From Streptomyces marianii (GTDB lineage Bacteria > Actinomycetota > Actinomycetes > Streptomycetales > Streptomycetaceae), in contig NZ_VAWE01000001.1 in assembly GCF_005795905.1 (NCBI RefSeq), forward strand, positions 3,134,501-3,198,500: 64,000 bases of DNA, read 5' to 3'. Under the pieces are notes generated by a model. The model did not search any database. It was not told the origin of the DNA and saw nothing but the letters and a program-made list of their open reading frames with translations. Positions within the stretch are counted from its first letter, which is position 1. Every line of letters begins with the position of its first letter. Below, in pieces: positions 22,063 to 52,033 of this stretch. Position numbers and translations under genes: made by a program.

Positions 22063-22098
22063 CTACGCGCGTAGGGATTCTCAGGCTAGGCTTTTCTC
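22063..22098 (+). promoter_or_regulatory. Salvage operator and leaderless promoter of the PNP gene
   Basis: The perfect palindrome CTACGCGCGTAG is at 22063-22074. TAGGCT (22087-22092) is a -10 exactly 6 nt before the GTG at 22099, and there is no ribosome-binding site. The operator covers the position expected for the -35. Confidence 0.75.
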
Positions 22099-22908
22099 GT
22101 GAACGTTTCCCTTACCCCGGACCCCCACGCCGCCGCCGACGCCGCGGCCGCGCGCCTGCGAGAGCTGACCGGCGCCGAGACCCACGACGTCGCCCTGGTG
22201 ATGGGCTCGGGCTGGGCGCCCGCGGTCGACGCCCTCGGCGCCCCCGACGCCGAGTTCCCGGTCACCGAACTGCCCGGCTTCCCGCCCCCGGCGGTCGAGG
22301 GCCACGGCGGCAAGATCCGCTCGTACCGGATCGGTGAGAAGCGGGCGCTCGTCTTCCTCGGCCGTACGCACTACTACGAGGGCCGCGGCGTCGCCGCCGT
22401 GGCGCACGGTGTGCGCACCGCCGTCGCCTCCGGCTGCAAGACCGTGGTCCTGACCAACGGCTGCGGCGGTCTGCGCGAGGGCATGCGGCCCGGCCAGCCG
22501 GTCCTCATCGGCGACCACATCAACCTCACCGCGGCCTCCCCGATCGTCGGCGCCAACTTCGTGGACCTGACCGACCTGTACTCGCCGCGGCTGCGGGCCC
22601 TGTGCAAGGAGGTGGACCCGACGCTGGAGGAGGGCGTCTACGTCCAGTTCCCCGGCCCGCACTACGAGACCCCTGCCGAGATCAACATGGTCCGTGTCAT
22701 GGGCGGCGACCTGGTCGGCATGTCCACGGTTCTCGAGGCCATCGCGGCCCGCGAGGCCGGCGCCGAGGTCCTCGGCATCTCCCTCGTCACCAACCTCGCC
22801 GCCGGGCTGTCGGGTGAGCCGCTGAACCACGAAGAGGTCCTGCAGGCAGGCCGTGACTCCGCGGCGCGGATGGGCGAGCTGCTGACCCGGGTGCTGGACC
22901 GGATCTGA
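22099..22908 (+). CDS. Purine-nucleoside phosphorylase (trimeric class)
   Basis: A 269-aa enzyme that splits (deoxy)inosine and (deoxy)guanosine with phosphate into base and (deoxy)ribose-1-phosphate. Signatures of the low-molecular-mass trimeric class are visible: the phosphate loop [48 protein letters not shown], and [16 protein letters not shown] with the base-site segment SLVTNLAAG. The start is GTG 22099, with a leaderless-type promoter and the salvage operator directly upstream. The phosphopentomutase-like gene follows 178 bp later, a logical next step for the ribose-1-phosphate product. Confidence 0.93.
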
Positions 22909-23086
22909 CGGGTCGCCGCCCCGGCGCCGGCGCGGCGCCGGGCGCGGACCCCACCCGCCGGGCGCGCCGCCCGGAGCGCAGCGGGCCGACACCGCCGCCC
23001 GGAACGGGCAGACGCAGTCGTGGACGCTGTCGGGCACACAGCCGGCGGCGCTCACGCTCACGACGACACCAGAGAGGCACATCACC

Positions 23087-24748
23087 GTGGCGCAGGACCT
23101 GATCGCGCAGGCCCGGGCTTGGCTGGCCGAGGACCCCGACGCGGAGACCCGCGACGAGCTGGGCCGGATCATCGAGGCCGGGGACACGGCGGAGCTGGGC
23201 GCCCGGTTCGCCGGGACCCTTCAGTTCGGCACGGCCGGTCTGCGCGGGGAACTCGGGGCCGGGCCGATGCGGATGAACCGCGTCGTCGTCATCCGCGCCG
23301 CCGCCGGGCTGGCCGCGTACCTCAAGGCGCAGGGCCATGACGGCGGCCTGGTCGTGATCGGCTACGACGCCCGCCACAAGTCCGCGGACTTCGCCCGCGA
23401 CACCGCCGCCGTCATGGCCGGTGCCGGACTGCGGGCCGCGCTGCTGCCGCGCCCGCTGCCCACGCCCGTACTCGCGTTCGCGATCCGGCACCTGGGGGCC
23501 GTCGCCGGCGTCGAGGTCACCGCGAGCCACAACCCGCCGCGCGACAACGGATACAAGGTCTACCTCGGGGACGGCGCCCAGATCGTGCCCCCGGCCGACG
23601 CCGGGATCGCCGCGGCGATCGAGGCGGTCGGCAGCATCCACGACCTGCCGCGCCCCGAGGGCGGCTGGGAGACGCTCGGGGACGAGGTCCTGGAGGCGTA
23701 TCTGGAGCGCACGGACGCGGTCCTGAGCCCGCACTCGCCGCGTACGGCCCGCGTGGTCCACACGGCCCTGCACGGCGTCGGCAGCGACGTGGTGCTGGCG
23801 GCCTGGGAACGGGCCGGGTTCCCCGCCCCCGTGCTCGTCGGCGAGCAGGCCGAGCCGGACCCCGACTTCCCCACGGTCGCCTTCCCCAACCCGGAGGAGC
23901 CGGGCGCGATGGACCTCGCGTTCGCGAAGGCGCGCGAGGCCGGGCCGGACCTCGTCATCGCCAACGACCCCGACGCCGACCGCTGCGCGGTGGCGGTCCC
24001 CGACGAAAGCGCGGACGGCGGCTGGCGCATGCTCCGCGGCGACGAGGTCGGCGCGCTGCTCGGCGCCCATCTCGTCCGCAAGGGCGTGGCGAAGGACGCG
24101 AGCAACACCTTCGCCACGTCGATCGTGTCGTCGTCGCTGCTCGGCCGGATCGCCGCCGCGGCCGGGCTCGGCTACGAGGAGACGCTGACGGGCTTCAAGT
24201 GGATCTCCCGTGCGGAGGGTCTGCGGTACGGCTACGAAGAGGCGCTCGGCTACTGCGTCGACCCGGACGGCGTGCGCGACAAGGACGGCATCACCGCCGC
24301 CCTGCTGGTCGCCGAACTGGCCTCGGAGCTGAAGGCCGAGGGCCGTACGCTCACGGACCTGCTGGACGACCTCGCCGTCGCCCACGGCCTGCACGCGACC
24401 GACCAGCTCTCGGTGCGCGTGGAGGACCTGGACGTCATCGCGGAGGCCATGCGCCGACTGCGCGGGAAGCCGCCCGTGGCACTGGCCGGGCTGCGGGTGG
24501 TGTCGGCGGAGGACCTGTCGAAGGGCACCGAGGCACTGCCGCCCACTGACGGTCTGCGGTACTACCTGGAGGGCGAGTACGACGCCCGCGTCATCGTCCG
24601 CCCCAGCGGCACCGAGCCCAAGCTCAAGTGCTACCTGGAGGTCGTGGTCCCGGTCGGCGGTCGGGACGGGCTGGCCTCCGCGCGGACCCGTGCCTCCGAG
24701 GTCCTCGCGGCCGTCAAGCGGGACCTCGCGAAGGCCGCCGGGATCTGA
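23087..24748 (+). CDS. Phosphohexomutase family enzyme, probable phosphopentomutase
   Basis: A 553-aa alpha-D-phosphohexomutase with all four domains. The catalytic phosphoserine lies in VTASHNPPRDNGYKVY, the metal loop in ANDPDADRCAVAV, the sugar loop in GYEEALGYCVDPD, and the phosphate-binding loop in RPSGTEPKLKCYLEV. The family acts on hexose- or pentose-1-phosphates. Placement right after the PNP gene, as in mycobacteria where pmmB follows the PNP gene deoD, suggests conversion of (deoxy)ribose-1-phosphate to the 5-phosphate, feeding DeoC. A phosphoglucomutase or phosphomannomutase activity remains possible. The start is GTG 23087 with GAGAGG upstream. Confidence 0.88.
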   Translation: MAQDLIAQARAWLAEDPDAETRDELGRIIEAGDTAELGARFAGTLQFGTAGLRGELGAGPMRMNRVVVIRAAAGLAAYLKAQGHDGGLVVIGYDARHKSADFARDTAAVMAGAGLRAALLPRPLPTPVLAFAIRHLGAVAGVEVTASHNPPRDNGYKVYLGDGAQIVPPADAGIAAAIEAVGSIHDLPRPEGGWETLGDEVLEAYLERTDAVLSPHSPRTARVVHTALHGVGSDVVLAAWERAGFPAPVLVGEQAEPDPDFPTVAFPNPEEPGAMDLAFAKAREAGPDLVIANDPDADRCAVAVPDESADGGWRMLRGDEVGALLGAHLVRKGVAKDASNTFATSIVSSSLLGRIAAAAGLGYEETLTGFKWISRAEGLRYGYEEALGYCVDPDGVRDKDGITAALLVAELASELKAEGRTLTDLLDDLAVAHGLHATDQLSVRVEDLDVIAEAMRRLRGKPPVALAGLRVVSAEDLSKGTEALPPTDGLRYYLEGEYDARVIVRPSGTEPKLKCYLEVVVPVGGRDGLASARTRASEVLAAVKRDLAKAAGI

Positions 24749-24784
24749 CGGTCCGCCGGGCCGGACTCCCCGCCCGCGTCCGGC

Positions 24785-24885
24785 CCCCGGACGGGCGCGG
24801 GCAGACACCGCCGGGCGCGGGCAGACGCAGGCAGACACCGCCGGGCGCAGGCAGACGCGGCAGGCGCGGGCAGGCGCGGGCCGTC
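24785..24885. repeat. Short degenerate minisatellite
   Basis: Overlapping GCGGGCAGAC / ACCGCCGGGC units repeat imperfectly for about 100 bp between the mutase and the mannosyltransferase-like gene. Non-coding. Confidence 0.55.
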
Positions 24886-24992
24886 TTCCTGCGGGTGATT
24901 TCCGTACGGCAACCGACCTACCGGCCCGTGCCCCTCCGTGCCCTTCGGGCGAGGGTGGCCCCGGTAGCGCCCGCCGAATCACCGGAGCCCCC

Positions 24993-26189: not shown

Positions 26190-26259
26190 CGGGCAGGCGG
26201 CCGGCTCCGCGCCGCGGTCCGCGCCTGCCGCGCACCCGACCGGGGAGGCCAGTCCCGGC

Positions 26260-26901: not shown

Positions 26902-26969
26902 GCTCACGATTCTGCCCCATGGGCCCGTGGCACCCCACGACGAGTCCCAGGTGCCCCCTGTACAGGTTG

Positions 26970-26994
26970 CTACGCGCGTAGATATGCTGGTCTG
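26970..26994 (+). promoter_or_regulatory. Salvage operator and leaderless promoter of deoC
   Basis: The palindrome CTACGCGCGTAG (26970-26981) lies 1 nt before the -10 TATGCT (26983-26988), between -35 and -10. Six nt then lead to GTG 26995. There is no ribosome-binding site. Confidence 0.75.
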
Positions 26995-27948
26995 GTGACC
27001 ATGCCCACCATTGCACCTGCATTCGCTGACGTGACCTCGTCCGACAGCGCACTGCGCCGCTTCCTGCACGGGCTGCCCGGTGTCGACGCCGTCGGCCTGG
27101 AAGCGCGCGCCGCGTCTCTCGGCACCCGCTCCATCAAGTCGACGGCCAAGGCGTACGCCATCGACCTGGCCATCTCGATGATCGACCTGACGACGCTGGA
27201 AGGCGCGGACACCCCGGGCAAGGTCCGGGCGCTCGCCGCCAAGGCCGTCAACCCCGACCCGACCGACCGCTCCGCACCGAGGACGGCCGCCGTCTGCGTC
27301 TACCCCGACATGGTGGCCACCGCCAAGGCCGGCCTGGGCGGGGCGGACGTGAAGGTCGCCTCCGTCGCCACCGCCTTCCCCGCCGGCCGCGCCGCCCTGG
27401 ACGTCAAGCTCGCGGACACCCGTGACGCCGTCGAGGCCGGGGCCGACGAGATCGACATGGTGATCGACCGCGGCGCGTTCCTCGCGGGCGACTACATGAA
27501 GGTCTTCGAGGAGATCCGCGCCGTGAAGGAGGCCTCCGGCGCCGCCCGGCTGAAGGTCATCTTCGAGACCGGCGAGCTCTCCACGTACGACAACATCCGC
27601 CGCGCCTCCTGGCTCGGCATGATGGCCGGAGCCGACTTCATCAAGACGTCGACCGGGAAGGTCGCCGTCAACGCGACCCCGGCCAACACCCTCCTCATGC
27701 TGGAAGCCGTCCGCGACTTCCGCGCGCAGACCGGCGTACAGGTCGGCGTGAAGCCCGCCGGCGGCATCCGCACCAGCAAGGACGCCATCAAGTTCCTGGT
27801 ACTCGTCAACGAGACCGCGGGCCAGGACTGGCTGGACAACCACTGGTTCCGGTTCGGCGCGTCCAGCCTGCTGAACGACCTGCTGATGCAGCGCCAGAAG
27901 CTGGCGACCGGCCGCTACTCCGGCCCCGACTACGTGACGGTGGACTGA
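26995..27948 (+). CDS. deoC: Deoxyribose-phosphate aldolase
   Basis: A 317-aa class I aldolase that cleaves 2-deoxyribose-5-phosphate to glyceraldehyde-3-phosphate and acetaldehyde, the last step of deoxynucleoside breakdown. TIM-barrel signatures include ASVATAFPAG, ADEIDMVIDRGAF, the Schiff-base Lys in FIKTSTGKVAVNAT, and the second Lys in VGVKPAGGIRT. The form is about 60 residues longer than E. coli DeoC, with an extended N-terminus. GTG 26995 fits the promoter (6 nt after the -10); ATG 27001 is in frame and would lose two residues. The next gene starts 6 bp downstream and encodes an aldehyde dehydrogenase suited to remove the acetaldehyde. Confidence 0.94.
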   Translation: MTMPTIAPAFADVTSSDSALRRFLHGLPGVDAVGLEARAASLGTRSIKSTAKAYAIDLAISMIDLTTLEGADTPGKVRALAAKAVNPDPTDRSAPRTAAVCVYPDMVATAKAGLGGADVKVASVATAFPAGRAALDVKLADTRDAVEAGADEIDMVIDRGAFLAGDYMKVFEEIRAVKEASGAARLKVIFETGELSTYDNIRRASWLGMMAGADFIKTSTGKVAVNATPANTLLMLEAVRDFRAQTGVQVGVKPAGGIRTSKDAIKFLVLVNETAGQDWLDNHWFRFGASSLLNDLLMQRQKLATGRYSGPDYVTVD

Positions 27949-27954
27949 GACCCC

Positions 27955-29403
27955 ATGACCATGGACAAGCATTCTGTCTTCGAGTACGCGCCCGCACCCG
28001 AGTCGCGGTCGGTCGTCGACATCGCCCCGTCGTACGGACTCTTCATCGACGGCGAGTTCACCGACGCCGCCGACGGCAAGGTCTTCAAGACCGTCTCCCC
28101 CTCCACCGAGGAGGTCCTGTCCGAGGTCGCACGGGCGGGCGCCGAGGACGTCGACCGCGCGGTGAGGGCCGCGCGCAAGGCGTTCGAGAAGTGGTCCGCG
28201 CTGCCGGGCTCCGAGCGCGCCAAGTACCTCTTCCGCATCGCCCGCATCGTCCAGGAGCGCTCGCGCGAGCTCGCCGTCCTGGAGACCCTGGACAACGGAA
28301 AGCCGATCAAGGAGACCCGCGACTCCGACCTCCCGCTGGTCGCGGCGCACTTCTTCTACTACGCGGGCTGGGCCGACAAGCTCGGCCACGCGGGGTACGG
28401 ACCCGACCCGCGGCCCCTCGGCGTCGCCGGCCAGGTCATCCCCTGGAACTTCCCGCTGCTGATGCTGGCGTGGAAGATCGCCCCGGCGCTCGCCACCGGC
28501 AACACGGTGGTGCTGAAGCCCGCGGAGACCACCCCCCTGTCCGCGCTGTTCTTCGCCGACGTCTGCCGCCAGGCCGGGCTGCCCAAGGGCGTCGTCAACA
28601 TCGTCCCCGGCTACGGCGACGCGGGTGCCGCGCTCGTGGCCCACCCGGACGTGAACAAGGTGGCTTTCACCGGTTCCACCGCGGTCGGCAAGGCCATCGC
28701 CCGCGAGGTCGCGGGCACCGACAAGAAGCTCACGCTGGAGCTGGGCGGCAAGGGCGCCAACATCGTCTTCGACGACGCCCCGATCGACCAGGCCGTCGAG
28801 GGCATCGTCGGCGGCATCTTCTTCAACCAGGGCCAGGTCTGCTGCGCGGGCTCCCGCCTCCTCGTCCAGGAGTCGATCCAGGACGAGCTGCTGGACTCCC
28901 TCAAGCGGCGGCTGTCGACGCTGCGCCTCGGCGACCCGCTGGACAAGAACACCGACATCGGCGCCATCAACTCGGCCGAGCAGCTGTCCCGGATCACGGC
29001 CCTCGCCGAGACCGGTGAGGCCGAGGGCGCCGAGCGCTGGACGGCACCGTGCGAACTGCCGTCGTCCGGCTACTGGTTCGCCCCGACGCTGTTCACCAAC
29101 GTCACCCAGGCCCACACCATCGCCCGTGACGAGATCTTCGGCCCGGTGCTGTCGGTGCTGACGTTCCGCACCCCGGACGAGGCCGTCGCCAAGGCCAACA
29201 ACAGCCAGTACGGCCTGTCGGCGGGCATCTGGACGGAGAAGGGCTCCCGCATCCTCGCGGTGGCGAACAAGCTCCGCGCGGGTGTCGTCTGGGCGAACAC
29301 CTTCAACAAGTTCGACCCGACCTCGCCCTTCGGCGGATACAAGGAGTCGGGCTTCGGCCGCGAGGGCGGCCGCCACGGTCTGGAGGCCTACCTCGATGTC
29401 TGA
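27955..29403 (+). CDS. Aldehyde dehydrogenase (catalytically complete)
   Basis: A 482-aa NAD(P)-dependent aldehyde dehydrogenase. All active-site elements are present: the oxyanion Asn in VIPWNFPLLM, the cofactor Lys in VVLKPAETTPLSA, the Rossmann Gly motif FTGSTAVGKA, the general base Glu in LELGGKGAN, the nucleophile in NQGQVCCAGSR and the EIFGPVL segment. It is co-directional with deoC (6-bp gap), so acetaldehyde from deoxyribose breakdown is a likely substrate by context; this is inference. Its 3' end overlaps the next gene by 8 bp. Two in-frame ATGs (27955, 27961) could start it. Confidence 0.92.
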   Translation: MTMDKHSVFEYAPAPESRSVVDIAPSYGLFIDGEFTDAADGKVFKTVSPSTEEVLSEVARAGAEDVDRAVRAARKAFEKWSALPGSERAKYLFRIARIVQERSRELAVLETLDNGKPIKETRDSDLPLVAAHFFYYAGWADKLGHAGYGPDPRPLGVAGQVIPWNFPLLMLAWKIAPALATGNTVVLKPAETTPLSALFFADVCRQAGLPKGVVNIVPGYGDAGAALVAHPDVNKVAFTGSTAVGKAIAREVAGTDKKLTLELGGKGANIVFDDAPIDQAVEGIVGGIFFNQGQVCCAGSRLLVQESIQDELLDSLKRRLSTLRLGDPLDKNTDIGAINSAEQLSRITALAETGEAEGAERWTAPCELPSSGYWFAPTLFTNVTQAHTIARDEIFGPVLSVLTFRTPDEAVAKANNSQYGLSAGIWTEKGSRILAVANKLRAGVVWANTFNKFDPTSPFGGYKESGFGREGGRHGLEAYLDV

Positions 29404-30865: not shown

Positions 30866-31504
30866 GTGAGTTCCCAACCCCCGCCGACGCGCGTCGTCCT
30901 GCTGTCCGGGCCCTCGGGTTCCGGAAAATCGTCCCTCGCCGCCCGCTCCGGCCTCCCGGTGCTGCGCCTCGACGACTTCTACAAGGAGGGTGACGACCCC
31001 GGTCTCCCGCTGATGGCGGGCACCACGGCCGTCGACTGGGACTCCCCCGTCTCCTGGGACGCCGACGCCGCGGTACGGGCGGTCGCGGAACTGTGCCGTA
31101 CGGGACGGACGACGGTCCCGGTGTACGACATCGCCACCAGTTCCCGGAGCGGCGCCGAGTTCGTCGACATCTCCCGTGCCCCGCTCTTCGTCGCGGAGGG
31201 CGTCTTCGCCGCGGACATCGTGGACCGCTGCCGGGAGCTCGGCATCCTCGCGGACGCCCTGTGCCTGCGCGGACGGCCCTCGACGACGTTCCGCCGCCGA
31301 CTCGTGCGGGATCTGCGCGAAGGCCGCAAGTCCGTGCCCTTCCTGCTCCGGCGCGGCTGGCGGCTGATGCGGGCCGAACGCGGCATCGTCACCCGCCAGA
31401 CGGCGCTGGGCGCCCACCCCTGCGGCGCGGACGAGGCGCTGGGCCGTCTCGCCACGGCCGCCGCGGGCCACTGCCGCCGCGCCCCGGCGAAGGAAGCCGT
31501 GTAG
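30866..31504 (+). CDS. Uridine kinase-like P-loop protein
   Basis: A 212-aa P-loop kinase: Walker A GPSGSGKSS near residue 15, LRLDDFYKEGDDPGLP as in the uridine kinase acceptor-binding region, DWDSPVSWD and VPVYDIATS, and an Arg-rich lid (FRRRLVRDLREGRK). It would phosphorylate uridine/cytidine or a similar substrate, in keeping with the surrounding salvage genes, but the substrate is inferred. The start is GTG 30866. It is shorter and more divergent than classical Udk, so no symbol is given. It converges with sigQ across a shared terminator. Confidence 0.82.
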   Translation: MSSQPPPTRVVLLSGPSGSGKSSLAARSGLPVLRLDDFYKEGDDPGLPLMAGTTAVDWDSPVSWDADAAVRAVAELCRTGRTTVPVYDIATSSRSGAEFVDISRAPLFVAEGVFAADIVDRCRELGILADALCLRGRPSTTFRRRLVRDLREGRKSVPFLLRRGWRLMRAERGIVTRQTALGAHPCGADEALGRLATAAAGHCRRAPAKEAV

Positions 31505-37056: not shown

Positions 37057-38244
37057 TCAGCCTTTTCTAGCGGCAGAACCGCTGGTCGTGGCCGTCTGCT
37101 GGAAAAGCCACTCCGACCTGAGTTCGGCGTATCCCGGCTTGATGACGTCATTGATCATCGCGAGCCGCTCATCAAAAGGAATGAACGCCGACTTCATCGC
37201 ATTGACCGTGAACCACTGCATGTCGTCGAGCGTGTAGCCGAATGTCTCGGTCAGCAGCTCGAATTCGCGGCTCATGCTCGTGTTGCTCATCAGCCGGTTG
37301 TCCGTGTTGACGGTGGCCCGGAAGTGCAGCCGTCGCAGCAGCCCGATGGGGTGCTCCTCGTACGAGGACGCGGCACCCGTCTGCAGGTTGGACGTCGGGC
37401 ACAGTTCGAGCGGGACCCGCTTGTCCCGGACGTACGCGGCGAGCCGCCCCATCTTCACGCCGCCGTCGGCGGCGACCTCGATGTCGTCGATGATGCGGAC
37501 GCCGTGGCCGAGACGGTCCGCGCCGCACCACTGGAGGGCCTGCCAGATGGACGGCAGCCCGAATCCCTCGCCGGCGTGGATCGTGAAGTGGTTGTTCTCC
37601 CGCTTGAGGTACTCGAACGCGTCGAGGTGGCGGGTGGGCGGGTAGCCGGCCTCGGCGCCCGCGATGTCGAAGCCGACGACGCCCGCGTCGCGGTAGCGGT
37701 TGGCGAGTTCGGCGATCTCCAGGGCCCGAGCCGCGTGCCGCATCGCGGTCAGGAGGGCACCGACCCGGATGCGGTGGCCGTTGGCGCGGGCCCGGCGTTC
37801 GCCCTCCCGGAAACCGTCGTTGACGGCCTCGACGACCTCTTCGAGGGTCAGCCCCGCTTCGAGGTGCTGCTCCGGCGCGTACCGCACCTCGGCGTACACG
37901 ACGCCGTCCTCGGCCAGGTCCTCGGCGCACTCGATCGCGACGCGCTTGAGGGCCTCCCGGGTCTGCATGACGGCACAGGTGTGCGCGAACGTCTCCAGGT
38001 AGCGCTCCAGCGAGCCGGAGTCGGCCGCTTCGTGGAACCAGACGCCGAGCTTGTCCGGCTCGGTCTCGGGCAGGGCGTCGTAGCCGACGGCGCGGGCGAG
38101 GTCGATGACGGTGCCGGGGCGCAGCCCGCCGTCGAGATGGTCGTGCAGAAGAACCTTCGGGGCGCGGCGGATCTGGTCCGTGGTGGGCCCCTGGTGCCCG
38201 GGGGCGCTTCCCCGGGAGGATGCGTGGGGTGTCTGGCTCGTCAT
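37057..38244 (-). CDS. add: Adenosine deaminase
   Basis: A 395-aa TIM-barrel metallo-enzyme converting (deoxy)adenosine to (deoxy)inosine, which PNP can then split. Zinc ligands and catalytic residues are visible: HDHLDGG near residue 34, [12 protein letters not shown] (His and Glu), RLGHGVR, and the Asp pair region [11 protein letters not shown]. The N-terminal 25 residues and the last 10 are disordered. ATG 38244 lies exactly 6 nt after a -10 hexamer with no ribosome-binding site, so the mRNA is probably leaderless, and the salvage operator sits just upstream of the -10. Confidence 0.95.
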
Positions 38245-38250
38245 CTCCGC

Positions 38251-38272
38251 ACTCTAGTCCCTACGCGCGTAG
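38251..38272 (-). promoter_or_regulatory. Salvage operator and leaderless promoter of add
   Basis: The palindrome CTACGCGCGTAG (38261-38272) lies 4 nt upstream of the -10 TAGAGT (minus strand 38256-38251). Six nt then lead to ATG 38244. Confidence 0.75.
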
Positions 38273-44341: not shown

Positions 44342-44461
44342 TCAGCCGACGGGGAAGGCCCCGTGTCGATCCTCTGGTGCGTCCGTCTCCTCCCGGAGAC
44401 GGACGAGGCCGTCCCACTCCTGGCCGTGAGGTGCCGGTGGGTCGACGCTGAGTGCGCCCAT
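44342..44461 (-). CDS. Putative 39-aa protein upstream of the STAS gene
   Basis: A short frame with a strong ribosome-binding site (AGAGGAG, 6 nt before ATG 44461), giving MGALSVDPPAPHGQEWDGLVRLREE... and a normal stop. It is soluble, acidic and has no motif. It lies about 90 bp upstream of the STAS gene on the same strand. It may be real or a short leader; conservation would decide. Confidence 0.4.
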   Translation of the reverse strand: MGALSVDPPAPHGQEWDGLVRLREETDAPEDRHGAFPVG

Positions 44462-44579
44462 GGCGGTCTCCTCTGTCGGTGCGTCACCGGGTCCAGCATG
44501 CCGAACGGGACCGGCGGCCCACCACCGGTCCCGTTCGCCCGAAAGACGTCACCCGGGCCCGTGCCCGCGCTCGCCCGGG

Positions 44580-45857
44580 TCAGGCGATGCGCTCCAGCAC
44601 CACCGGGGTCGCCTCGTACGAGGCGCCCGGTGCGGCGATGTCGAAGGAGCCCTCCAGGGACTGCAGGGCGTAGTCGAACTTCTCGGGGGTGTCCGTGTGC
44701 AGGGTCATCAGCGGGGCGCCCGCGGTGACCTCGTCGCCGGGCTTGGCGTGGAGTTCGACGCCCGCGCCCGCCTGCACCGGGTCCTCCTTGCGGGCCCGGC
44801 CGGCTCCCAGGCGCCAGGCCGCCACGCCGACCTCGTAGGCGTCGAGACGGGTCAGCACGCCCGAGGCCGGAGCCGTGATCACATGCTGCTCGCGGGCGAC
44901 CGGCAGCGCGGCGTCCGGGTCGCCGCCCTGTGCGGCGATCATGCGGCGCCAGACGTCCATCGCCGAACCGTCGGCCAGGGCCTTCGCCGGGTCGGCGTCC
45001 TTGATCCCCGCCGCGTCGAGCATCTCACGGGCCAGTGCGATGGTCAGCTCCACGACGTCCGCCGGGCCGCCGCCCGCCAGCACCTCGACGGACTCGCGGA
45101 CCTCCAGGGCGTTGCCCGCGGTGAGGCCGAGCGGCGTCGACATGTCGGTCAGCAGCGCGACGGTCTTCACCCCGTGGTCCGTACCGAGGCCGACCATGGT
45201 GGAGGCGAGCTCGCGGGCGTCCTCGATGTTCTTCATGAAGGCGCCGGTACCGACCTTCACGTCCAGCACGAGCGAGCCCGTGCCCTCGGCGATCTTCTTG
45301 GACATGATCGAGGAGGCGATCAGCGGGATGGCCTCGACCGTGCCGGTGACGTCGCGCAGGGCGTACAGCTTCTTGTCGGCGGGGGCGAGCCCGTCGCCCG
45401 CGGCGCAGATGACCGCGCCGGTGGTGTCGAGGACCCGCAGCATCTCCTCGTTGGACAGCAGCGCCCGCCAGCCGGGGATGGACTCCAGCTTGTCGAGCGT
45501 GCCGCCGGTGTGGCCGAGGCCACGGCCGGAGAGCTGGGGAACGGCTGCGCCGCAGGCGGCTACCAGCGGGGCCAGCGGGAGCGTGATCTTGTCACCCACG
45601 CCGCCCGTGGAGTGCTTGTCGGCGGTCGGGCGCGACAGTGACGAGAAGTCCATGCGCTCGCCGGACCCGATCATCGCGGCGGTCCAGCGGGCGATCTCCG
45701 TACGGTTCATGCCGTTCAGCAGGATCGCCATCGCCAGCGCCGACATCTGCTCGTCGGCGACCTCGCCGCGGGTGTACGCGTCGATGACCCAGTCGATCTG
45801 CTCGGGAGTGAGCTCGCCTCGGTCGCGCTTGGTGCGGATGACGGAGATGGCGTCCAT
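44580..45857 (-). CDS. deoA: Thymidine phosphorylase
   Basis: A 425-aa enzyme splitting thymidine and deoxyuridine into base and 2-deoxyribose-1-phosphate. Family motifs: AMAILLNGMNRTEIARWT, the phosphate-binding region STGGVGDKITLPLAPLVAACG, SGRGLGHTGGTLDKLESIPG (the phosphorylase signature), and VLDVKVGTGAFMK. The C-terminal domain (PVQAGAGVELHAKPGDEV) is complete. ATG 45857 is chosen, since the open frame upstream enters a hairpin. It lies downstream of cdd, separated by the MITE-like repeat and a stem-loop, so operon read-through may be modulated there. Confidence 0.94.
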   Translation of the reverse strand: MDAISVIRTKRDRGELTPEQIDWVIDAYTRGEVADEQMSALAMAILLNGMNRTEIARWTAAMIGSGERMDFSSLSRPTADKHSTGGVGDKITLPLAPLVAACGAAVPQLSGRGLGHTGGTLDKLESIPGWRALLSNEEMLRVLDTTGAVICAAGDGLAPADKKLYALRDVTGTVEAIPLIASSIMSKKIAEGTGSLVLDVKVGTGAFMKNIEDARELASTMVGLGTDHGVKTVALLTDMSTPLGLTAGNALEVRESVEVLAGGGPADVVELTIALAREMLDAAGIKDADPAKALADGSAMDVWRRMIAAQGGDPDAALPVAREQHVITAPASGVLTRLDAYEVGVAAWRLGAGRARKEDPVQAGAGVELHAKPGDEVTAGAPLMTLHTDTPEKFDYALQSLEGSFDIAAPGASYEATPVVLERIA

Positions 45858-45905
45858 GTGCTTTGGGTCCTTCCGGGTGCGAACCAGGTGGTGCGGGAAT
45901 GTCGC

Positions 45906-45934
45906 GGCCCCTCCGCCGGAACAGCGGAGGGGCC
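45906..45934 (-). terminator. Hairpin between cdd and deoA
   Basis: A perfect 11-bp stem GGCCCCTCCGC with GCGGAGGGGCC and a 7-nt loop, 49 bp upstream of deoA. A terminator of cdd or an attenuator reducing deoA expression. Confidence 0.6.
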
Positions 45935-45958
45935 GCCGGGTCATGGCCCTGCGGGGCC

Positions 45959-46254
45959 TAGTGCCGCCTCGGGCAAGGTGTGCCCGTCAAGGAGCGGCGT
46001 CCGGTGCACGGGGTCTCCCCCGGCCCTCCGGCCGAGGGAGTGGGGCCTCCCCAGGCCCTCCGGCCGAGGGAGTGGGGCCTCCCCAGGCCCTCCCGGGCCG
46101 AGGGGGTGGGGCCTCCCCAGGCCCTCCCGGGCCGAGGGGAAGAACGCAAGGTGCCGGATCGACCCCGTAGGGGGCCTACTCGGTTGATCCGGCAACGCCG
46201 CGAGCCGCCGTGCCGGGCGCCGCGACGGAGCGAACGCTGCCCGACGCGGCACTA
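45959..46254. repeat. MITE-like element, copy 2
   Basis: A second copy of the element at 4834-5158. Its ends read TAGTGCCGCCTCGGGCAAGG and, inward from the right, TAGTGCCGCGTCGGGCAGCG. It has one fewer 32-bp unit and two 33-bp variants, and the same hairpin CCGGATCGACC/GGTTGATCCGG (about 46153-46194). The right terminus supplies the cdd stop codon (CTA, 46252-46254). The end-specific bases differ from copy 1 but match each other within each copy. Confidence 0.82.
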
Positions 46255-46731
46255 GCCGAGCTCCTCCGGGCCGAGCTCCTCCGGGCCGAGCTTCTCCGGG
46301 CCGAGCTTCTGCGGGCCGAGCTTCTGCGGGCCGAAGGCCAGGGGCAGCATCTCGGCGAGGGGCAGGATGCCCGCCTCGGTCTCCAGCAGCAGGCCGGGGC
46401 CGCCGAACTCGTACAGCAGCTGGCGGCAGCGGCCGCACGGCATCAGTACGTCGCCGTTGCCGTCCACACAGGTGAAGTGCGTGAGCCGGCCACCGCCCGA
46501 GGCGTTCAGCTGCGAGACGAGCCCGCACTCGGCGCACAGCGACAGTCCGTACGAGGCGTTCTCGACGTTGCAGCCGCTGACCGTGCGACCGTCGTCGACG
46601 AGGGCGGCCGCGCCGACCGGGTAGCCCGAGTACGGGACGTACGCGTGGGACATCGCGTCCCGCGCCGCCTCCCGCAGGGCTCCCCAGTCGACGGCGCCGG
46701 CGTCGGCCGCCGGCGCGGGGCCGGGCGTCAC
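46252..46731 (-). CDS. cdd: Cytidine deaminase with C-terminal GPxxL repeat tail
   Basis: A 159-aa enzyme deaminating (deoxy)cytidine to (deoxy)uridine, feeding DeoA. The core is complete: YVPYSGYPVGAAAL, CNVENASYGLSLCAEC (zinc Cys and catalytic Glu region) and MPCGRCRQLLYEFG. The usual protein ends soon after LPLAF. Here 26 extra residues follow as five GPxxL units plus a Gly (GPQKL twice, GPEKL, GPEEL twice). The stop codon is formed by the first bases of the adjacent MITE-like element. GTG 46731 overlaps the permease stop (GTGA). Confidence 0.93.
   Translation of the reverse strand: MTPGPAPAADAGAVDWGALREAARDAMSHAYVPYSGYPVGAAALVDDGRTVSGCNVENASYGLSLCAECGLVSQLNASGGGRLTHFTCVDGNGDVLMPCGRCRQLLYEFGGPGLLLETEAGILPLAEMLPLAFGPQKLGPQKLGPEKLGPEELGPEELG
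46255..46332 (-). repeat. 15-bp tandem repeat within the cdd 3' end
   Basis: Five 15-bp units encode GPxxL pentapeptides, with only the third and fourth codons of the unit varying (Gln/Glu, Lys/Glu). Directly adjacent to the MITE terminus. Confidence 0.85.
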
Positions 46732-47990
46732 TTGCCCTGGCCCTTCTTGTACGGCTGTCCGATGACCTTGGGTGGCCGCAGACGCTGCGCCGACAGCGCG
46801 AGCACCAGAAGGGTGGTCACATAGGGAGCGGCGTCCACGAACTGGCTGGGCAGCGCGTCGGTGAGCCCGTACCAGGCGAAGAGCAGACCGGAGACACCGA
46901 GGCAGATACCCGCCTGCCAGTGCTTCCTCTTGTAGAGCTGCCAGGCGAAGACCAGCACCAGCAGGATCGCCAGGAGCAGAAGCATGGCGTGGACGTTCTC
47001 GGCGCCGCCGCGCAGCTTCAGGCTGTCGGTGAAGCCGAACAGTCCGGCACCGAGCGCCAGTCCGCCCGGCATCCAGTTGCCGAAGATCATGGCGGCGAGA
47101 CCGATGTAGCCTCGGCCGCCGGTCTGGCCCTCCTGGTAGATGCCCGTGGAAACGATGGCGAGGAACGCGCCTCCGAGTCCGGCCAGCGCACCGGAGACGA
47201 TCACGGCGATGTACTTGTACTTGTAGACGTTCACGCCGAGGGACTCGGCGGCGACGGCGTTCTCACCGCAGGACCGCAGCCGCAGACCGAAGCCGGTGCG
47301 CCACAGGACCCACCAGGTGGCGGGCACGAGCAGCAGCGCGATGACGGTCAGCAGGGAGAGGTTGGTGACCAGTCCGCCGAGCACGCCCGCCAGGTCGGAG
47401 ACGAAGAACCAGTGCTTGGCCTGAAGGTCCGCCAGGGCGTCCGAGAGCCCGGGAATCGTGATCTCGGTGATCGCGTCGATGCGCGGGGACTGCTTCGAGG
47501 AGCCGCCCGGCGCCTCGGCGAAGGTGAAGTCGGACAGGTAGCGGGTGGCACCGACGGCCAGGATGTTGATGGCGACACCGGAGACGATGTGGTTGACGTT
47601 GAACGTCACCGTCATGATCGCGTGCAGCAGGCCGCCGAGCGCGCCGCCGATGATGCCCACCGCGACGCCCGTCCACGGGCCCCACTGGTAACCCGCCCAG
47701 GCGCCGAACCAGGTACCGAGGATCATCATGCCCTCGAGGCCGATGTTGATCACGCCTGCCCGCTCGGCCCACAGGCCGCCGAGACCGGCGAGACCGATGG
47801 GCACGGCGAGCTGGAGGGCGCCGGACACCTGCCCGACCGAGGTGAGGTCGTTGGCGCCGCTGATGACGCGGACCAGCGAGAACAGTGCCAGACCGCCCGC
47901 GATGATGAGCAGGATCATGGGCACGGAAAGGGTGCGACGGGCGCGCTTGATGGGCGCCGCGCCGGCCGGGACGGCCGTGGTGGTCGTCAC
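46728..47990 (-). CDS. Nucleoside ABC transporter permease 2
   Basis: A 420-aa inner-membrane permease of the BmpA-associated nucleoside family (BPD_transp_2). The landmarks are LAVPIGLAGLGGLWAERAGVINIGLEGMM and GFGLRLRSCGENAVAAESLGVNVYKYKY, the permease EAA-like loop. About nine to ten helices are present, and residues 1-20 are cytosolic. GTG 47990 overlaps the first permease stop (GTGA), and its own stop overlaps cdd. It imports purine or pyrimidine nucleosides with its partners. Confidence 0.92.
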   Translation of the reverse strand: MTTTTAVPAGAAPIKRARRTLSVPMILLIIAGGLALFSLVRVISGANDLTSVGQVSGALQLAVPIGLAGLGGLWAERAGVINIGLEGMMILGTWFGAWAGYQWGPWTGVAVGIIGGALGGLLHAIMTVTFNVNHIVSGVAINILAVGATRYLSDFTFAEAPGGSSKQSPRIDAITEITIPGLSDALADLQAKHWFFVSDLAGVLGGLVTNLSLLTVIALLLVPATWWVLWRTGFGLRLRSCGENAVAAESLGVNVYKYKYIAVIVSGALAGLGGAFLAIVSTGIYQEGQTGGRGYIGLAAMIFGNWMPGGLALGAGLFGFTDSLKLRGGAENVHAMLLLLAILLVLVFAWQLYKRKHWQAGICLGVSGLLFAWYGLTDALPSQFVDAAPYVTTLLVLALSAQRLRPPKVIGQPYKKGQGK

Positions 47991-49096
47991 GCGGCCACCT
48001 CCTCACGGTTCTTGCGGGCCTGGGCGGCGAGTTCCTCGCCGACCTTCTGCTGCTGGCGGCGGAGCCCGTACTGGCGGACGAGTTCGTAGGACACGACGAC
48101 CGCGATCACGATCAGGCCCTGCATGATGATGGAGATCTCCTTGGGGTACCCCGCGAGACCGAGCCCTTCCGCCGTCTTCTCCAGGAAGGAGATGAGCACG
48201 GCGGCGAAGAAGATGCCGATGGGGCTGTTGCGGCCCAGCAGCGCGATGGTGATGGCGGTGAAGCCGACGCCCACCGGGAAGCTGAGGCTGTAGGTGTGGG
48301 TCTGTCCCAGCAGCATCGGCATGCCGGCGAGGCCCGCGACCGCACCCGAGATCAGCATGGCGGTCATGACCATCTTCTTGGCGTCGACGCCGCTCGCCTG
48401 CGCCGCGGACTCGCTGGCGCCGGTGGCGCGCAGGTCGAAGCCGAAGCGGGTGCGGTTCAGTACGAACCAGTAGACGAGGCCGAGTGCGAAGGCGACGAAG
48501 GTGAAGCCGTAGATGGTGCCGCCTTCGAGCTCGAGACCGGGGACCCAGCCGGACTCGGCGATCTCTCCGGTCGTCAGGTCGTTGGAGCCCTTGGGCTGCA
48601 CACCGAGGTTCGCGGGCAGGATCAGCCAGGCGATCAGGCTGGTCGCGATGGCGTTCAGCATGATCGTGGAGACGACCTCGCTGACCCCTCGGGTCGTCTT
48701 CAGGATGCCCGCGATACCGGCCCAGAGCGCGCCGACGAGCATGGCGACGAGCACGATCAGCGCGACGTGCAGCGGGCCGGGCAGCTCGACGGAGGCGCCG
48801 ACGACGGCCGCCAGCATCACCGCGAGGCGGTACTGGCCGTCGACGCCGATGTTGAACAGGTTCATCCGGAAGCCGATGGCGACGGCGAGGGCGGCGAGGT
48901 AGTAGATGCCGCTCTGGTTGAGGATGTTCACCTGGACATCGGTGAACTCCACCTGCTCCGCCATCAGCTGGTAGGGCTCGATGGGGCTGAGGCCCGACAC
49001 CAGCAGCACCACGGAGGTCAGCACGAAGGCGACGACCAGGGCGAGCGCCGGTCCGGCGAAGCCCAGGATCAGCCGGTCCTTGTCGAATTTCCTCAT
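47987..49096 (-). CDS. Nucleoside ABC transporter permease 1
   Basis: A 369-aa permease paralogous to the next gene: IGFRMNLFNIGVDGQYRLAV, STIMLNAIATSLIAWLI and FGFDLRATGASESAAQASGVDAKKMV are the family landmarks. About eight to nine helices are present. ATG 49096 overlaps the ATPase stop (ATGA). It forms the heterodimeric channel with the second permease. Confidence 0.92.
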   Translation of the reverse strand: MRKFDKDRLILGFAGPALALVVAFVLTSVVLLVSGLSPIEPYQLMAEQVEFTDVQVNILNQSGIYYLAALAVAIGFRMNLFNIGVDGQYRLAVMLAAVVGASVELPGPLHVALIVLVAMLVGALWAGIAGILKTTRGVSEVVSTIMLNAIATSLIAWLILPANLGVQPKGSNDLTTGEIAESGWVPGLELEGGTIYGFTFVAFALGLVYWFVLNRTRFGFDLRATGASESAAQASGVDAKKMVMTAMLISGAVAGLAGMPMLLGQTHTYSLSFPVGVGFTAITIALLGRNSPIGIFFAAVLISFLEKTAEGLGLAGYPKEISIIMQGLIVIAVVVSYELVRQYGLRRQQQKVGEELAAQARKNREEVAA

Positions 49097-50634
49097 CGGC
49101 CCTCACCGGTTCCGTTCTCGTGGCGCTCAAGGTGGCCGGTGGCGGCGCCGGTCATGGCCGAGCCCAGCTCCTCGGGGGTGATCGTGGCGGGGTCGGCGTC
49201 CGCGACCAGCCGGCCGCGGTACATCACCCGCAGGGTGTCGGAGAGCCCGATGAGCTCGTCCAGGTCGGCCGAGATCAGCAGCACCGCGAGGCCCTCGCGG
49301 CGGGCCTCGCGGATCTGGTCCCAGATCTGCGCCTGCGCGCCGACGTCCACACCACGGGTGGGGTGGGCGGCGATCAGCAGCTTGGGCGCGTGGCTCATCT
49401 CGCGACCGACGATCAGCTTCTGCTGGTTGCCGCCGGAGAGGGAGGCCGCGGTGACCTCGATCCCGGGGGTGCGGACGTCGTACTCGCGCACGATCCGCTC
49501 GGTGTCCTTCCGGGCGGCCTTGAGGTCGAGCAGGCCGTTCTTGCTGTTGGGGCGCTCGGTGACATGGCCGAGGATACGGTTCTCCCACAGCGGGGACTCC
49601 AGCAGCAGACCGTGCCGATGGCGGTCCTCGGGGATGTACCCGATCCCGCCCTCGCGGCGCTTGCGGGTCGGCGCGTGGGAGATGTCGGCACCGTCGAGGG
49701 TGATCATGCCGCCGTCGGGGTCGCGCATGCCCATGAGCGCCTCGATGAGCTCGGTCTGGCCGTTGCCCTCGACCCCCGCGATGCCCATGACCTCACCCTT
49801 GTGGATGGTGAGGGTGATGCCCGCGAGGACCTCGCGGACGACGCCGTCGGGGTCGACCGCGGTCAACCGGAGGTTGCCGACGTCGAGCATCGGCACATCG
49901 GTGACCGTCGACTCGCGCGTCTCCGGCGAGGGGAGCTCGCTGCCGACCATCAGCTCGGCCAGCTGCTTCGGGGTGGTGGTGCGCGGGTCGGCGGTGCCCA
50001 CGGTCGTACCGCGGCGGATGACGGTGATGTCGTCGGCGACCGACAGCACCTCGCCCAGCTTGTGCGAGATGAAGATGACCGTGAGGCCCTCGGCCTTGAG
50101 CTCCCGCAGGTTGTCGAAGAGCGCGTCGACCTCCTGCGGGACCAGCACGGCGGTCGGTTCGTCGAGAATCAGAGTGCGGGCACCGCGGTAGAGGACCTTG
50201 AGGATCTCCACGCGCTGGCGGTCGGCGACACCGAGCTCCTCCACGAGGACGTCCGGGCGGATGTTCAGCCCGTACGCGTCCGAGATGTCCTTGATCTTCT
50301 TCCGGGCCTGGGCGCCGATGCCGTACAGCTTCTCGCCGCCGAGGACGACGTTCTCCAGCACGGTGAGGTTGTCGGCCAGCATGAAGTGCTGGTGGACCAT
50401 GCCGATGCCGGTGGCGATGGCATCGGCCGGGCTGTGGAAGCTGACCTGGTTGCCGTCGACGGTGATGGTGCCCTCGTCCGGCTTCTGCATGCCGTAGAGG
50501 ATCTTCATGAGGGTCGACTTGCCGGCACCGTTCTCACCGACGAGAGCATGGACTGTGCCCTTGCGGATGGTGATGTCGATGTCGTGGTTGGCGACGACGC
50601 CGGGGAAGCGCTTGGTGATGCCGTGCAGTTCCAC
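49093..50634 (-). CDS. Nucleoside ABC transporter ATPase (duplicated cassette)
   Basis: A 513-aa protein with two ATPase domains. The first is complete: Walker A GENGAGKST, signature region ELGVADRQRVEILK, Walker B RTLILDEPTAVL. The second has a weakened Walker A (GVEGNGQTEL), with LSGGNQQKLIVGREM and KLLIAAHPTRGVD, as normal for this family. It drives uptake with the two permeases. The start is listed as GTG 50634, but no ribosome-binding site precedes it. AAGGAG at 50690-50685 is followed in frame only by GAGTGCGTCATCAACGCG, so the true start codon may be non-standard (ATC 50676) or altered by an indel. Confidence 0.9.
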   Translation of the reverse strand: MELHGITKRFPGVVANHDIDITIRKGTVHALVGENGAGKSTLMKILYGMQKPDEGTITVDGNQVSFHSPADAIATGIGMVHQHFMLADNLTVLENVVLGGEKLYGIGAQARKKIKDISDAYGLNIRPDVLVEELGVADRQRVEILKVLYRGARTLILDEPTAVLVPQEVDALFDNLRELKAEGLTVIFISHKLGEVLSVADDITVIRRGTTVGTADPRTTTPKQLAELMVGSELPSPETRESTVTDVPMLDVGNLRLTAVDPDGVVREVLAGITLTIHKGEVMGIAGVEGNGQTELIEALMGMRDPDGGMITLDGADISHAPTRKRREGGIGYIPEDRHRHGLLLESPLWENRILGHVTERPNSKNGLLDLKAARKDTERIVREYDVRTPGIEVTAASLSGGNQQKLIVGREMSHAPKLLIAAHPTRGVDVGAQAQIWDQIREARREGLAVLLISADLDELIGLSDTLRVMYRGRLVADADPATITPEELGSAMTGAATGHLERHENGTGEGR

Positions 50635-50784
50635 GGCGGCAGCAGCCGGCGGCGATGACGGACTGGACGCGTTGATGACGCACTCTCCTTGGAGGAAGGA
50701 GCGAGAAGCAGGGGCAGGGCAGGCGTGGGGGCGGGCAGTTCCGCGGTCAGGGGTGGTGGCGAAGCTATCGCGCCCGAATGAACT

Positions 50785-50796
50785 CTACGCGCGTAG
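50785..50796 (-). promoter_or_regulatory. Salvage operator upstream of the transporter ATPase
   Basis: The perfect palindrome CTACGCGCGTAG, about 17 nt upstream of a TAGCTT (minus 50767-50762) that may be a -10. It lies between the substrate-binding protein gene and the ATPase, giving the ATPase-permease-cdd-deoA unit its own regulated promoter. Confidence 0.75.
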
Positions 50797-50836
50797 CAGC
50801 AACAAAGAGCGAGAACCGGTGGACGGAACCCGGTCC

Positions 50837-50875
50837 GGGTCCGGAGGGGCTGCTGCGCGCCGCCCCTCCGGACCC
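50837..50875 (-). terminator. Terminator of the substrate-binding protein gene
   Basis: A perfect 13-bp stem (50837-50849 with 50863-50875) and a 13-nt loop, 26 bp after the stop codon. Probably partial, as the transporter genes follow. Confidence 0.75.
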
Positions 50876-50901
50876 GTGGGCCCGTGGTTCCCGTCGCCCG
50901 G

Positions 50902-51948
50902 TTACGGGGCGGTCTTGACCGTGACCTTGCCCGCGATGATGTCGGCCTTGGCCTTGTCGATCGCGGCGGTGACCTCGGTCATCTTGGTGAAGGCCGGGTT
51001 GGAGGTGGCCAGGCCCACGCCACCCTTGTCGAGGCCGTAGCGGACCTCACCGGACTGCGGCTTGCCGTCCTTGACCGACTTGATCAGGTTGTAGACGGCT
51101 CCGGACACGTCCTTGGTCACCGAGGTGAGGATGTAGTCCTGGTACTGGGCGAGACCCCGCTGCTTGTACTGGTCGGAGTCCACGCCGATGGCCCACTTCT
51201 TGGCCTTGGCGGCGGCCTCGATCGAGCCCGAGCCGGCGAGACCGGCGGCGGCGTAGATCACGTCGGCGCCCGCGTCGAGCTGGCCCTGCGCGGCGGCCTT
51301 GCCCAGGTCCGGCTTGGAGAAGCCACCGAAGTCCGGCGGCTGGGTCAGGTACTGGACCTTGACGTTGACGTTCTTGTTGGTGTCCTTGACGCCCTGGACG
51401 AAGCCGGCCTCGAACTTCTTGATCAGCGGCACCTCGACGCCGCCGATGAAGCCGACGGTGTTGCTCTTGGTGACCTTGGCGGCGGCGACGCCGGCCAGGT
51501 AGGAGCCCTGCTCCTCGTTGAAGACCAGGTTGGCGATGTTCTTGCCGGTCTTGGAGGTGTCGTCGATGAGGCCGAACGTGGTGTTCGGGAACTTCGGCGC
51601 GACCTCGGCGATGGCCGGGGCGTAGGCGAAGCCGACGCCGATCACCGGGTTGTTGCCGGCCCGGGCCAGCGAGGTGAGGCGCTGCACCTTGTCCGGGTCG
51701 CCCTCGCCTTCACTGGGCTCGGCCTCGGCGCCCGTGACGTCGAGTTCCTTCTCGGCCTTGGCGAGACCCGCGTAGGCGGCGTCGTTGAACGACTGGTCTC
51801 CGCGGCCGCCGATGTCGTAGGCGATGGCCGCCTTGGCGCCACTGCCCGATCCGGCCTCGGACGAGGACTTGCCGCCACATGCGGTGGCGGACAACGCGAG
51901 TGCCGTGGACGCGATGCCCACGGTGGCGATCCTGGTGATCCGGCGCAC
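50902..51948 (-). CDS. BmpA/PnrA-type nucleoside-binding lipoprotein
   Basis: A 348-aa substrate-binding lipoprotein: signal peptide with lipobox ATAC (Cys about 24), a Gly/Ser linker, then a type I periplasmic-binding fold with GRGDQSFNDAAYAGL, VIGVGFAYAPAIAEVA, FNEEQGSYLAGVAAA, GFIGGVEVPLIKKFEAGF and VIYAAAGLAGSGSIEAA, the PnrA/Med family pattern. It delivers nucleosides to the permeases downstream. GTG 51948 has AAGGAG 6 nt upstream. A 6-bp-arm hairpin (51976-51993) sits in the 5' leader. It has its own promoter. Confidence 0.93.
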   Translation of the reverse strand: MRRITRIATVGIASTALALSATACGGKSSSEAGSGSGAKAAIAYDIGGRGDQSFNDAAYAGLAKAEKELDVTGAEAEPSEGEGDPDKVQRLTSLARAGNNPVIGVGFAYAPAIAEVAPKFPNTTFGLIDDTSKTGKNIANLVFNEEQGSYLAGVAAAKVTKSNTVGFIGGVEVPLIKKFEAGFVQGVKDTNKNVNVKVQYLTQPPDFGGFSKPDLGKAAAQGQLDAGADVIYAAAGLAGSGSIEAAAKAKKWAIGVDSDQYKQRGLAQYQDYILTSVTKDVSGAVYNLIKSVKDGKPQSGEVRYGLDKGGVGLATSNPAFTKMTEVTAAIDKAKADIIAGKVTVKTAP

Positions 51949-52005
51949 TAGAGGCTCCTTATAAACCTGACCGAAAGCGCCACTTCCGGCGCTGGTTTTG
52001 CGGCG

Positions 52006-52033
52006 ATCGTAACGCGCGTAGATGTCAGGTAAA
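52006..52033 (-). promoter_or_regulatory. Promoter of the binding-protein gene with variant operator
   Basis: TTTACC (minus 52033-52028), 16 nt, TACGAT (52011-52006). The variant operator CTACGCGCGTTA (52021-52010) overlaps the -10 and matches 10 of 12 bases of the perfect palindrome. Confidence 0.65.

Follow-up and report, generated by a model that had tools for sequence, protein, structure and literature searches.

The 12-bp palindrome CTACGCGCGTAG recurs in the promoters of nucleoside genes within a 64,000-nucleotide stretch of the Streptomyces marianii genome (contig NZ_VAWE01000001.1, positions 3,134,501 to 3,198,500; hereafter the window, meaning this whole stretch). We put at roughly four in five the probability that a LacI-family regulator encoded at C1:4549380-4550405, likely the orthologue of SCO4158 of Streptomyces coelicolor, uses it as operator and through it controls a regulon of nucleoside and purine genes. 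The case is built from sequence: the sites themselves, their conservation, a list of targets wider than the window, a link between the type of LacI helix and the pattern CTAnnCGnnTAG, and a telling arrangement of genes in Kribbella.

The original prediction placed perfect copies of CTACGCGCGTAG at 22063, 26970, 38261 and 50785, a 10/12 variant at 52010, and no other perfect copy in the window, and a scan of the window bears out each of these statements. The four perfect copies lie in the promoters of PNP (purine-nucleoside phosphorylase), deoC, add and a nucleoside ATP-binding cassette (ABC) operon, and span 28.7 kb. The variant is TAACGCGCGTAG, which reads CTACGCGCGTTA in the direction of the binding-protein gene. 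Across the whole genome of 9,010,366 bases there are exactly four perfect copies, all inside the window, and a control word, the palindrome read backwards, occurs twice; copies scattered through the genome with no link to salvage, which would have spoken against a common operator, were looked for and there were none. Markov chains of order 1–4 trained on the window predict 0.24–0.37 perfect copies per 9.01 Mb and 0.0017–0.0026 per window, so that four copies in 28.7 kb are not a matter of chance. The enrichment is confined to the perfect copies. With up to two mismatches allowed the window contains six sites against 4.34 expected, a number reached by 30 of 100 shuffles, so there is no enrichment at this loose level; the sole match besides the five operators is at 30885. 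At no more than one mismatch the reversed control, with 51 genomic sites, outnumbers the palindrome, with 15, and one-mismatch sites are not enriched as a class. The pattern CTAnnCGnnTAG occurs seven times in the genome, of which five are the four window sites and one 5′ of purSQL; the Markov model expects four to five, while the reversed control, not matched in composition, gives 118. It is the placement of these sites that is remarkable, not their total. The remaining two (L330, L331) have no nucleoside gene nearby on inspection.

Each site in the window is 5′ of its gene and, on reading the sequence by eye, adjoins, covers or shortly precedes a −10-like hexamer. The genes, whose identities were checked by profile search (Pfam, NCBIfam), and their operators are as follows.

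22063..22074, unstranded: operator 1, CTACGCGCGTAG, in the PNP promoter; of 53 family loci retrieved through one site per genome, 19 are likewise at PNP.
22099..22908, forward strand: PNP (NCBIfam TIGR01698, over cut-off).
23087..24748, forward strand: phosphomannomutase/phosphoglucomutase-family protein (PMM-like; the mutase step), 3′ of PNP (Pfam PF02878-PF02880, PF00408).
26970..26981, unstranded: operator 2, CTACGCGCGTAG, immediately next to a −10-like sequence of deoC.
27001..27948, forward strand: deoC, deoxyribose-phosphate aldolase (Pfam PF01791, DeoC/LacD family aldolase), starting at ATG 27001, with alternative GTG starts possible at 26995 and 27031.
27955..29403, forward strand: aldehyde dehydrogenase, 3′ of deoC (Pfam PF00171).
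37057..38244, reverse strand: add, adenosine deaminase (NCBIfam NF006847, over cut-off).
38261..38272, unstranded: operator 3, CTACGCGCGTAG, 5′ of the −10-like TAGAGT of add.
44580..45857, reverse strand: deoA, pyrimidine/thymidine phosphorylase (NCBIfam NF004490 and TIGR02644, over cut-off).
46252..46731, reverse strand: cdd, cytidine deaminase (Pfam PF00383, PF08211).
46728..47990, reverse strand: ABC permease (profile match under cut-offs).
47987..49096, reverse strand: ABC permease (profile match under cut-offs).
49093..50634, reverse strand: ABC transporter ATPase (under the equivalog cut-offs; 'nucleoside-type' is assigned from its neighbours).
50785..50796, unstranded: operator 4, CTACGCGCGTAG, 5′ of the ABC-cdd-deoA operon.
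50902..51948, reverse strand: BMP/PnrA-type substrate-binding lipoprotein (Pfam PF02608).
52010..52021, unstranded: operator 5, CTACGCGCGTTA towards the gene; its last three letters overlap the −10-like TTACGAT of the BMP gene, which would explain its deviation from the palindrome.
18723..19646, reverse strand: DeoR-family regulator (PF08220, PF00455), with a promoter lacking the site; SCO4920 is taken to be its counterpart in S. coelicolor.

How widely is the operator kept? At least one perfect copy of CTACGCGCGTAG is present in 199 of 200 Streptomycetaceae genomes, mostly as two to five copies (the control mostly has none or one), and the sole exception, G010, has single-mismatch sites directly 5′ of deoC and add. 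In a class-wide draw of 295 genomes a perfect copy was found in 33/33 of the same genus against 9/262 outside the family. When 53 family loci were retrieved through one site per genome, 47 proved to be PNP (19), the ABC operon (15), add (9), an add paralogue (2) or deoC (2); purSQL and a 5′-nucleotidase account for one each, and four are unassigned. In the deep-branching genera PNP, deoC and add retain their sites, some of them altered (e.g. CTACGCGTGTAG or CTACGCGCATAG). The form found at operator 5 is conserved too: the identical twelve letters of CTACGCGCGTTA lie 53–72 bp 5′ of the binding-protein gene in 16/16 relatives (loci with at least 120 bp of upstream sequence, originally retrieved for other sites), where the reversed control is 4–5 mismatches off. 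Taken with the four genomic copies and the loci at these genes, the presence of the site in 199/200 genomes gives strong support to the proposal that one operator links genes of import, deamination, phosphorolysis and the aldolase step. Outside the family, none of six loci retrieved by a perfect copy (L046-L051) matches regulon genes, and inspection of 20 loci from 20 genomes of other families, in most of which the BMP-ABC-cdd-deoA-add cluster is present in whole or part, revealed no regulator regularly beside it, nor any site with one mismatch or fewer. Upstream of the BMP gene, at about 52040–52075 of the window, there is also a GATAACG/GTAACG-like stretch that recurs by eye at this place in other actinobacterial families (e.g. 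L185, L188, L191, L192, L194), and this may be the site of another, older regulator.

The original prediction described a nucleoside salvage regulon; the salvage genes stand, and the scope was drawn too narrowly. The sites point to a regulon that extends into de novo purine synthesis, through purSQL joined in some lineages by purNH, and that includes a secreted 5′-nucleotidase in some genomes. In the present genome single-mismatch sites are found 5′ of purSQL (L011) and of the secreted 5′-nucleotidase (L012); among relatives, L069 and L128 have a perfect site at purSQL, L055 has one at the nucleotidase, and the nucleotidase site of L293 departs by one mismatch. purSQL was also examined independently of the site, by a search for PurQ that matched in 40/41 family genomes and from which 30 loci were retrieved. 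The 12-mer was present with one or two mismatches 56–92 bp 5′ of purS in 28/30 promoters, the best control match having three or four; the exceptions are L240, with matches only at an odd place, and L250, with none. Read by eye, the site is often ∼14 bp 5′ of a TACGCT-like −10 sequence, and CTAnnCGnnTAG is kept in 16 of the 28. A gene for Lsr2 lies divergently 5′ of purSQL at L011:944-1273 (Pfam) and L069:1793-2110 (by eye).

The corresponding test for purN, again not using the site, matched in 41/41 genomes and gave 30 loci, one of them too short. A site with no more than two mismatches is present in 7/29 genomes, including 3/3 of genus g14, and because of this distribution we regard purNH as a predicted lineage-specific member; the site is also seen in six g14 regions, themselves selected by their perfect copies. 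A second adenosine deaminase is likewise a lineage-specific member (L053, L068, L107, L108, L124-L127, L129). Genus g14 further carries the operator at a secreted protein of ∼570 amino acids with Ig-like and weakly carbohydrate-binding-like domains (L111, L113, L115, L118, L120, L121, L123), in two tandem copies in L111. There are 11 single-mismatch sites in the present genome, of which six precede plausible genes (purSQL, two 5′-nucleotidases, a Xan_ur permease, a carbon-nitrogen hydrolase and a secreted protein with a GmrSD_C domain) and five do not; relatives lend support to purSQL and one 5′-nucleotidase only. At L006 a close paralogue of add (78% identical in the portion seen) comes after a GntR-family gene, with CTACGGGCGTAG ∼190 bp upstream.

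A candidate for the regulator is indicated by an arrangement in Kribbella turkmenica (L255), found by scanning contigs for two close perfect copies. Two copies of CTACGCGCGTAG stand here 12 bp apart; on one side of them is a LacI gene and on the other, reading divergently from it, are genes for a BMP protein, an ATPase and two permeases. Apart from this place the scan gave three repeat-like ones only (by eye). The helix region of the Kribbella LacI is GTSTAVVSYVLNNGPRPVA. Its closest relatives in 8/8 family genomes tested have E values of 1e-69 to 1e-77 and the same helix; these family proteins read GTSTAVVSYV(I/V)NNGPRPVA there, and in all eight genomes a GlnR-like gene is adjacent (by similarity). 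In seven genomes outside the family, by contrast, the top match reaches no better than 1e-44 and its helix is of the ordinary sort, though a relative exists in G261 as well. Six LacI-type matches are found in the present genome (E up to 1e-30), just one of which has the S-T-A-V-V-S-Y helix. The candidate gene, G000:C1:4549380-4550405, lies 1.35 Mb from the window, directly downstream of the GlnR-like gene and 6.5 kb from the 5′-nucleotidase site. Its product (L289:9381-10406) matches PF00356, PF13377 and PF00532 over cut-off, giving a LacI helix-turn-helix with a periplasmic-binding-protein-like domain. The neighbouring protein (L289:10430-11224) matches chain 4o1h, named GlnR, and has better matches in 8hih and 8hig, which we take to be GlnR as well. 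Among NCBIfam models the candidate scores 185.6 bits for RbsR (NF047341, cut-off 382), 173.5 for PurR (NF007979, cut-off 501), 163.4 for CytR (NF008269, cut-off 436) and 117 for UriR (NF051853, cut-off 550); it is thus nearest to the RbsR, PurR and GalS/CytR-type models and far under their cut-offs. In S. coelicolor the LacI gene SCO4158 lies downstream of glnR/sco4159, according to the available sections of PMC9739823. It is this shared position beside glnR that makes the candidate a likely SCO4158 orthologue.

Loci outside the family served as an independent test of the link between LacI type and site. With the LacI protein of this genome as query, 80 of the 262 non-family genomes were searched; 31 matched at 1e-42 and 30 loci were retrieved, of which 16 are of the AVVSYV type. 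Where the helix reads S-T/V-A-V-V-S-Y, CTAnnCGnnTAG is found within 300 bp upstream in 6/10 loci and CAAnnCGnnTTG in none; where it reads S-P-A-V-V-S-Y, CAAnnCGnnTTG is found there in 5/6 and the CTA type in none. Shuffling leads one to expect 0.065 for CTAnnCGnnTAG and 0.03 for CAAnnCGnnTTG, and 0/14 other LacI genes have either. The neighbours searched of this subfamily include inosine-uridine nucleoside hydrolases (the match in L307 is under the Pfam cut-off), adenosine deaminases, PfkB kinases and an ABC ATPase. The P-type loci with CAAnnCGnnTTG upstream are L303, L304, L305, L306 and L310, with a PfkB kinase beside L305, an ABC ATPase beside L306 and the others alike by eye. Maximum-likelihood analysis of 60 LacI proteins recovers the subfamily as a clade (100/99), and likewise the eight family genes (100/98); the G261, Kribbella and hydrolase-deaminase-linked genes join the family clade (98/93) and are among its nearest relatives. 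We predict that the T/V or P residue of the helix sets a CTA or CAA half-site, a short DNA-recognition code for this subfamily of LacI proteins. An aside in the original prediction, that full symmetry and a central CG would suit a LacI-type protein, fits the CTACGC/GCGTAG palindrome and with CTAnnCGnnTAG beside the LacI relatives.

A number of observations weigh against assigning the operator to this LacI protein and must be set beside those above. The correspondence is imperfect at the sites: 12/28 purS sites differ from CTAnnCGnnTAG in an outer letter, 4/10 T/V loci have no CTAnnCGnnTAG upstream, and four of the six CTA cases are near-identical genes from close kin in one genus. Nor are the exact 12-mer and the LacI type in one-to-one relation. 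G260, G278, G310, G326, G342 and G201 have S-T-A-V-V-S-Y homologues but no perfect 12-mer, although all save G201 have another CTAnnCGnnTAG upstream of the LacI gene. In G261 such a homologue occurs together with three perfect copies, but these lie neither at regulon genes nor within 1.5 kb of the LacI gene. One of these copies (L292:4062-4073) is 269 bp 5′ of genes of the PTPS, radical-SAM, IMPDH and phosphoribosyltransferase families, 14 kb from the LacI gene; the set is perhaps a 7-deazapurine pathway, making a purine-related link possible. In the family the LacI gene lacks a good site of its own (2–4 mismatches in 8/8 genomes), which argues that it is not autoregulated by the operator, and the promoter of the SCO4158-type LacI gene is called and used as constitutive in one paper (available sections of PMC4365011). 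On both these grounds the level of the regulator is probably steady and its activity governed by ligand. Finally, joint repression of purSQL and catabolic genes does not follow a simple single-ligand logic.

On balance we favour the LacI protein, and the placement of the sites suggests how it would act. A LacI dimer would read a CTAnnC/GnnTAG palindrome in or beside core promoters and most likely repress by blocking RNA polymerase; for purSQL the −35 region would lie under the site. The spacing varies and overlap with the core promoter is constant, from which we infer steric repression. The repressed set would comprise BMP-ABC import, add, cdd, PNP, deoA, deoC and purSQL, with purNH, a second adenosine deaminase and a secreted 5′-nucleotidase as additional targets in some lineages. 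Since the sites are perfect at the salvage genes and mostly weaker at purSQL, release at different levels is possible. Binding of these sites by the LacI protein in this genome, repression, and sensing of nucleosides, ribose or purine status are what we would infer.

What would the ligand be? Compatible with LacI as the regulator, though somewhat short of an even chance, is a protein that mainly tracks purine sufficiency through a purine corepressor, in the manner of PurR, and not nucleoside induction in the manner of CytR. A sensor of purine supply is what the sites at purSQL (28/30) and purNH argue for, and the PurR model scores close behind RbsR (173.5 against 185.6 bits, both under cut-off); the relatives of the protein elsewhere, however, adjoin genes for catabolic nucleoside hydrolases, adenosine deaminases and kinases, which fits induction by a nucleoside or ribose. 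Considerably less probable is that a regulator of another kind, perhaps a TetR- or MarR-type protein, recognizes the palindrome and that the match to LacI reflects convergence of half-sites. The LacI gene has no site for autoregulation, and at L114:2440-2500 three CACTACnnnnGTAGTG-like repeats, one containing a perfect 12-mer, stand beside seemingly non-nucleoside genes and are probably the site of another regulator, so that unrelated proteins may read CTAC-N4-GTAG. Such a reading leaves unexplained the Kribbella arrangement, the link of T/V versus P to CTA versus CAA, and the nucleoside genes that the LacI genes have as common neighbours.

Least probable is the nearest candidate of the original prediction, the DeoR-family protein encoded at 18723-19646, answering a sugar phosphate such as deoxyribose-5-phosphate: its gene is 2.4 kb from PNP, its orthologues in 18 other family genomes are 74–90% identical with a near-identical helix-turn-helix region and lie near PNP in five 20-kb loci (L093, L094, L097, L104, L160), and the ligand would fit deoC and PNP, but its conserved promoter has no site in 19/19 family genomes, this one included (best match 3–5 mismatches in 150 bp, the same as the control), and its SEVTVRRD(V/L/I) helix is shared by 11/11 non-family homologues read, whose genomes have the perfect 12-mer in 0/11 cases. 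In four of these 11 genomes (G413, G240, G260, G292) the gene adjoins sugar-type ABC transporter genes (similarity and eye). On this evidence taken together we rejected the candidate: DeoR is probably not the regulator of the palindrome. Conservation is high in the promoter of deoR itself (GGTGCAAAC...GCTGAAA; window 19640-19720, L131-L148), which suggests regulation of its own.

The LacI system proposed here has parallels among known regulators. In E. coli, CytR is a LacI-family protein that controls nucleoside uptake and catabolism, including cdd and the deo genes, and works with CRP on variably spaced half-sites; the present regulon is alike in family and in its uptake and catabolic targets, and differs in its compact 12-bp CTAnnCGnnTAG site and in including purSQL. 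E. coli PurR, also of the LacI family, represses de novo purine genes through a palindrome with a central CG. These features would be shared here; E. coli PurR is not known to control deoC, deoA or cdd, which belong to the present set. UriR of Corynebacterium is, as the name of its NCBIfam model also says, another actinobacterial LacI regulator of nucleoside use, but the candidate scores 117 bits against its cut-off of 550. Bacillus PurR controls synthesis and salvage together and belongs to a protein family other than LacI; the joint control is alike and the family different. It has been linked to (p)ppGpp, the guanosine penta- and tetraphosphates (available sections of PMC8789054). Within Streptomyces, XdhR of S. 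coelicolor is tied to purine salvage, represses the xdh operon and answers ppGpp, and a title cited in the available sections of PMC6627660 calls it a TetR-family protein; XdhR is thus alike as a purine-salvage regulator, but those sections do not link it to the genes discussed here.

SCO4158 shares with our candidate its position downstream of glnR/sco4159, and in the available sections of PMC9739823 it is suggested as a possible regulator of glnR, with no regulon given. In the accessible parts of the literature found it is an orphan, represented by expression data, a predicted ArgR site, the suggested glnR role and a cited pigment study only. The last, by Meng et al. in 2012, reportedly concerns an antibiotic pigment, to judge from its title. 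A search of the open-access literature, subscription papers being outside its scope, found no paper in which this operator is named or this regulon ascribed to SCO4158. Among papers matched by pieces of the 12-mer, only PMC8063756 and PMC8510090 contain all three fragments and could thus contain the full word; going by their titles, they deal with DNA structure and GapR. A LacI protein as such is a known kind of regulator; neither the regulon and its operator nor their assignment to SCO4158 came up in the open-access literature searched.

Taken more broadly, the chances seem to us evenly divided that a single LacI repressor beside glnR serves as a purine and nucleoside economy switch in all Streptomycetaceae, uniting the roles of E. 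coli CytR and PurR and having evolved from local repressors of nucleoside hydrolase operons. In that form, at the same even odds, the switch would cover the uptake and salvage of nucleosides, nucleotide breakdown by secreted enzymes and the synthesis of purines de novo, and it might connect purine status with nitrogen control and with the making of antibiotics; the recognition code proposed above belongs to the same wager. If the assignment to SCO4158 is right, this orphan gains an operator, a list of targets and a probable job, and the Streptomycetaceae a regulator of purine synthesis and nucleoside scavenging; the LacI subfamily would gain a short code of DNA recognition. ppGpp and cyclic di-GMP (c-di-GMP) are fed by purine pools and have a bearing on antibiotic production and development (available sections of PMC6627660).

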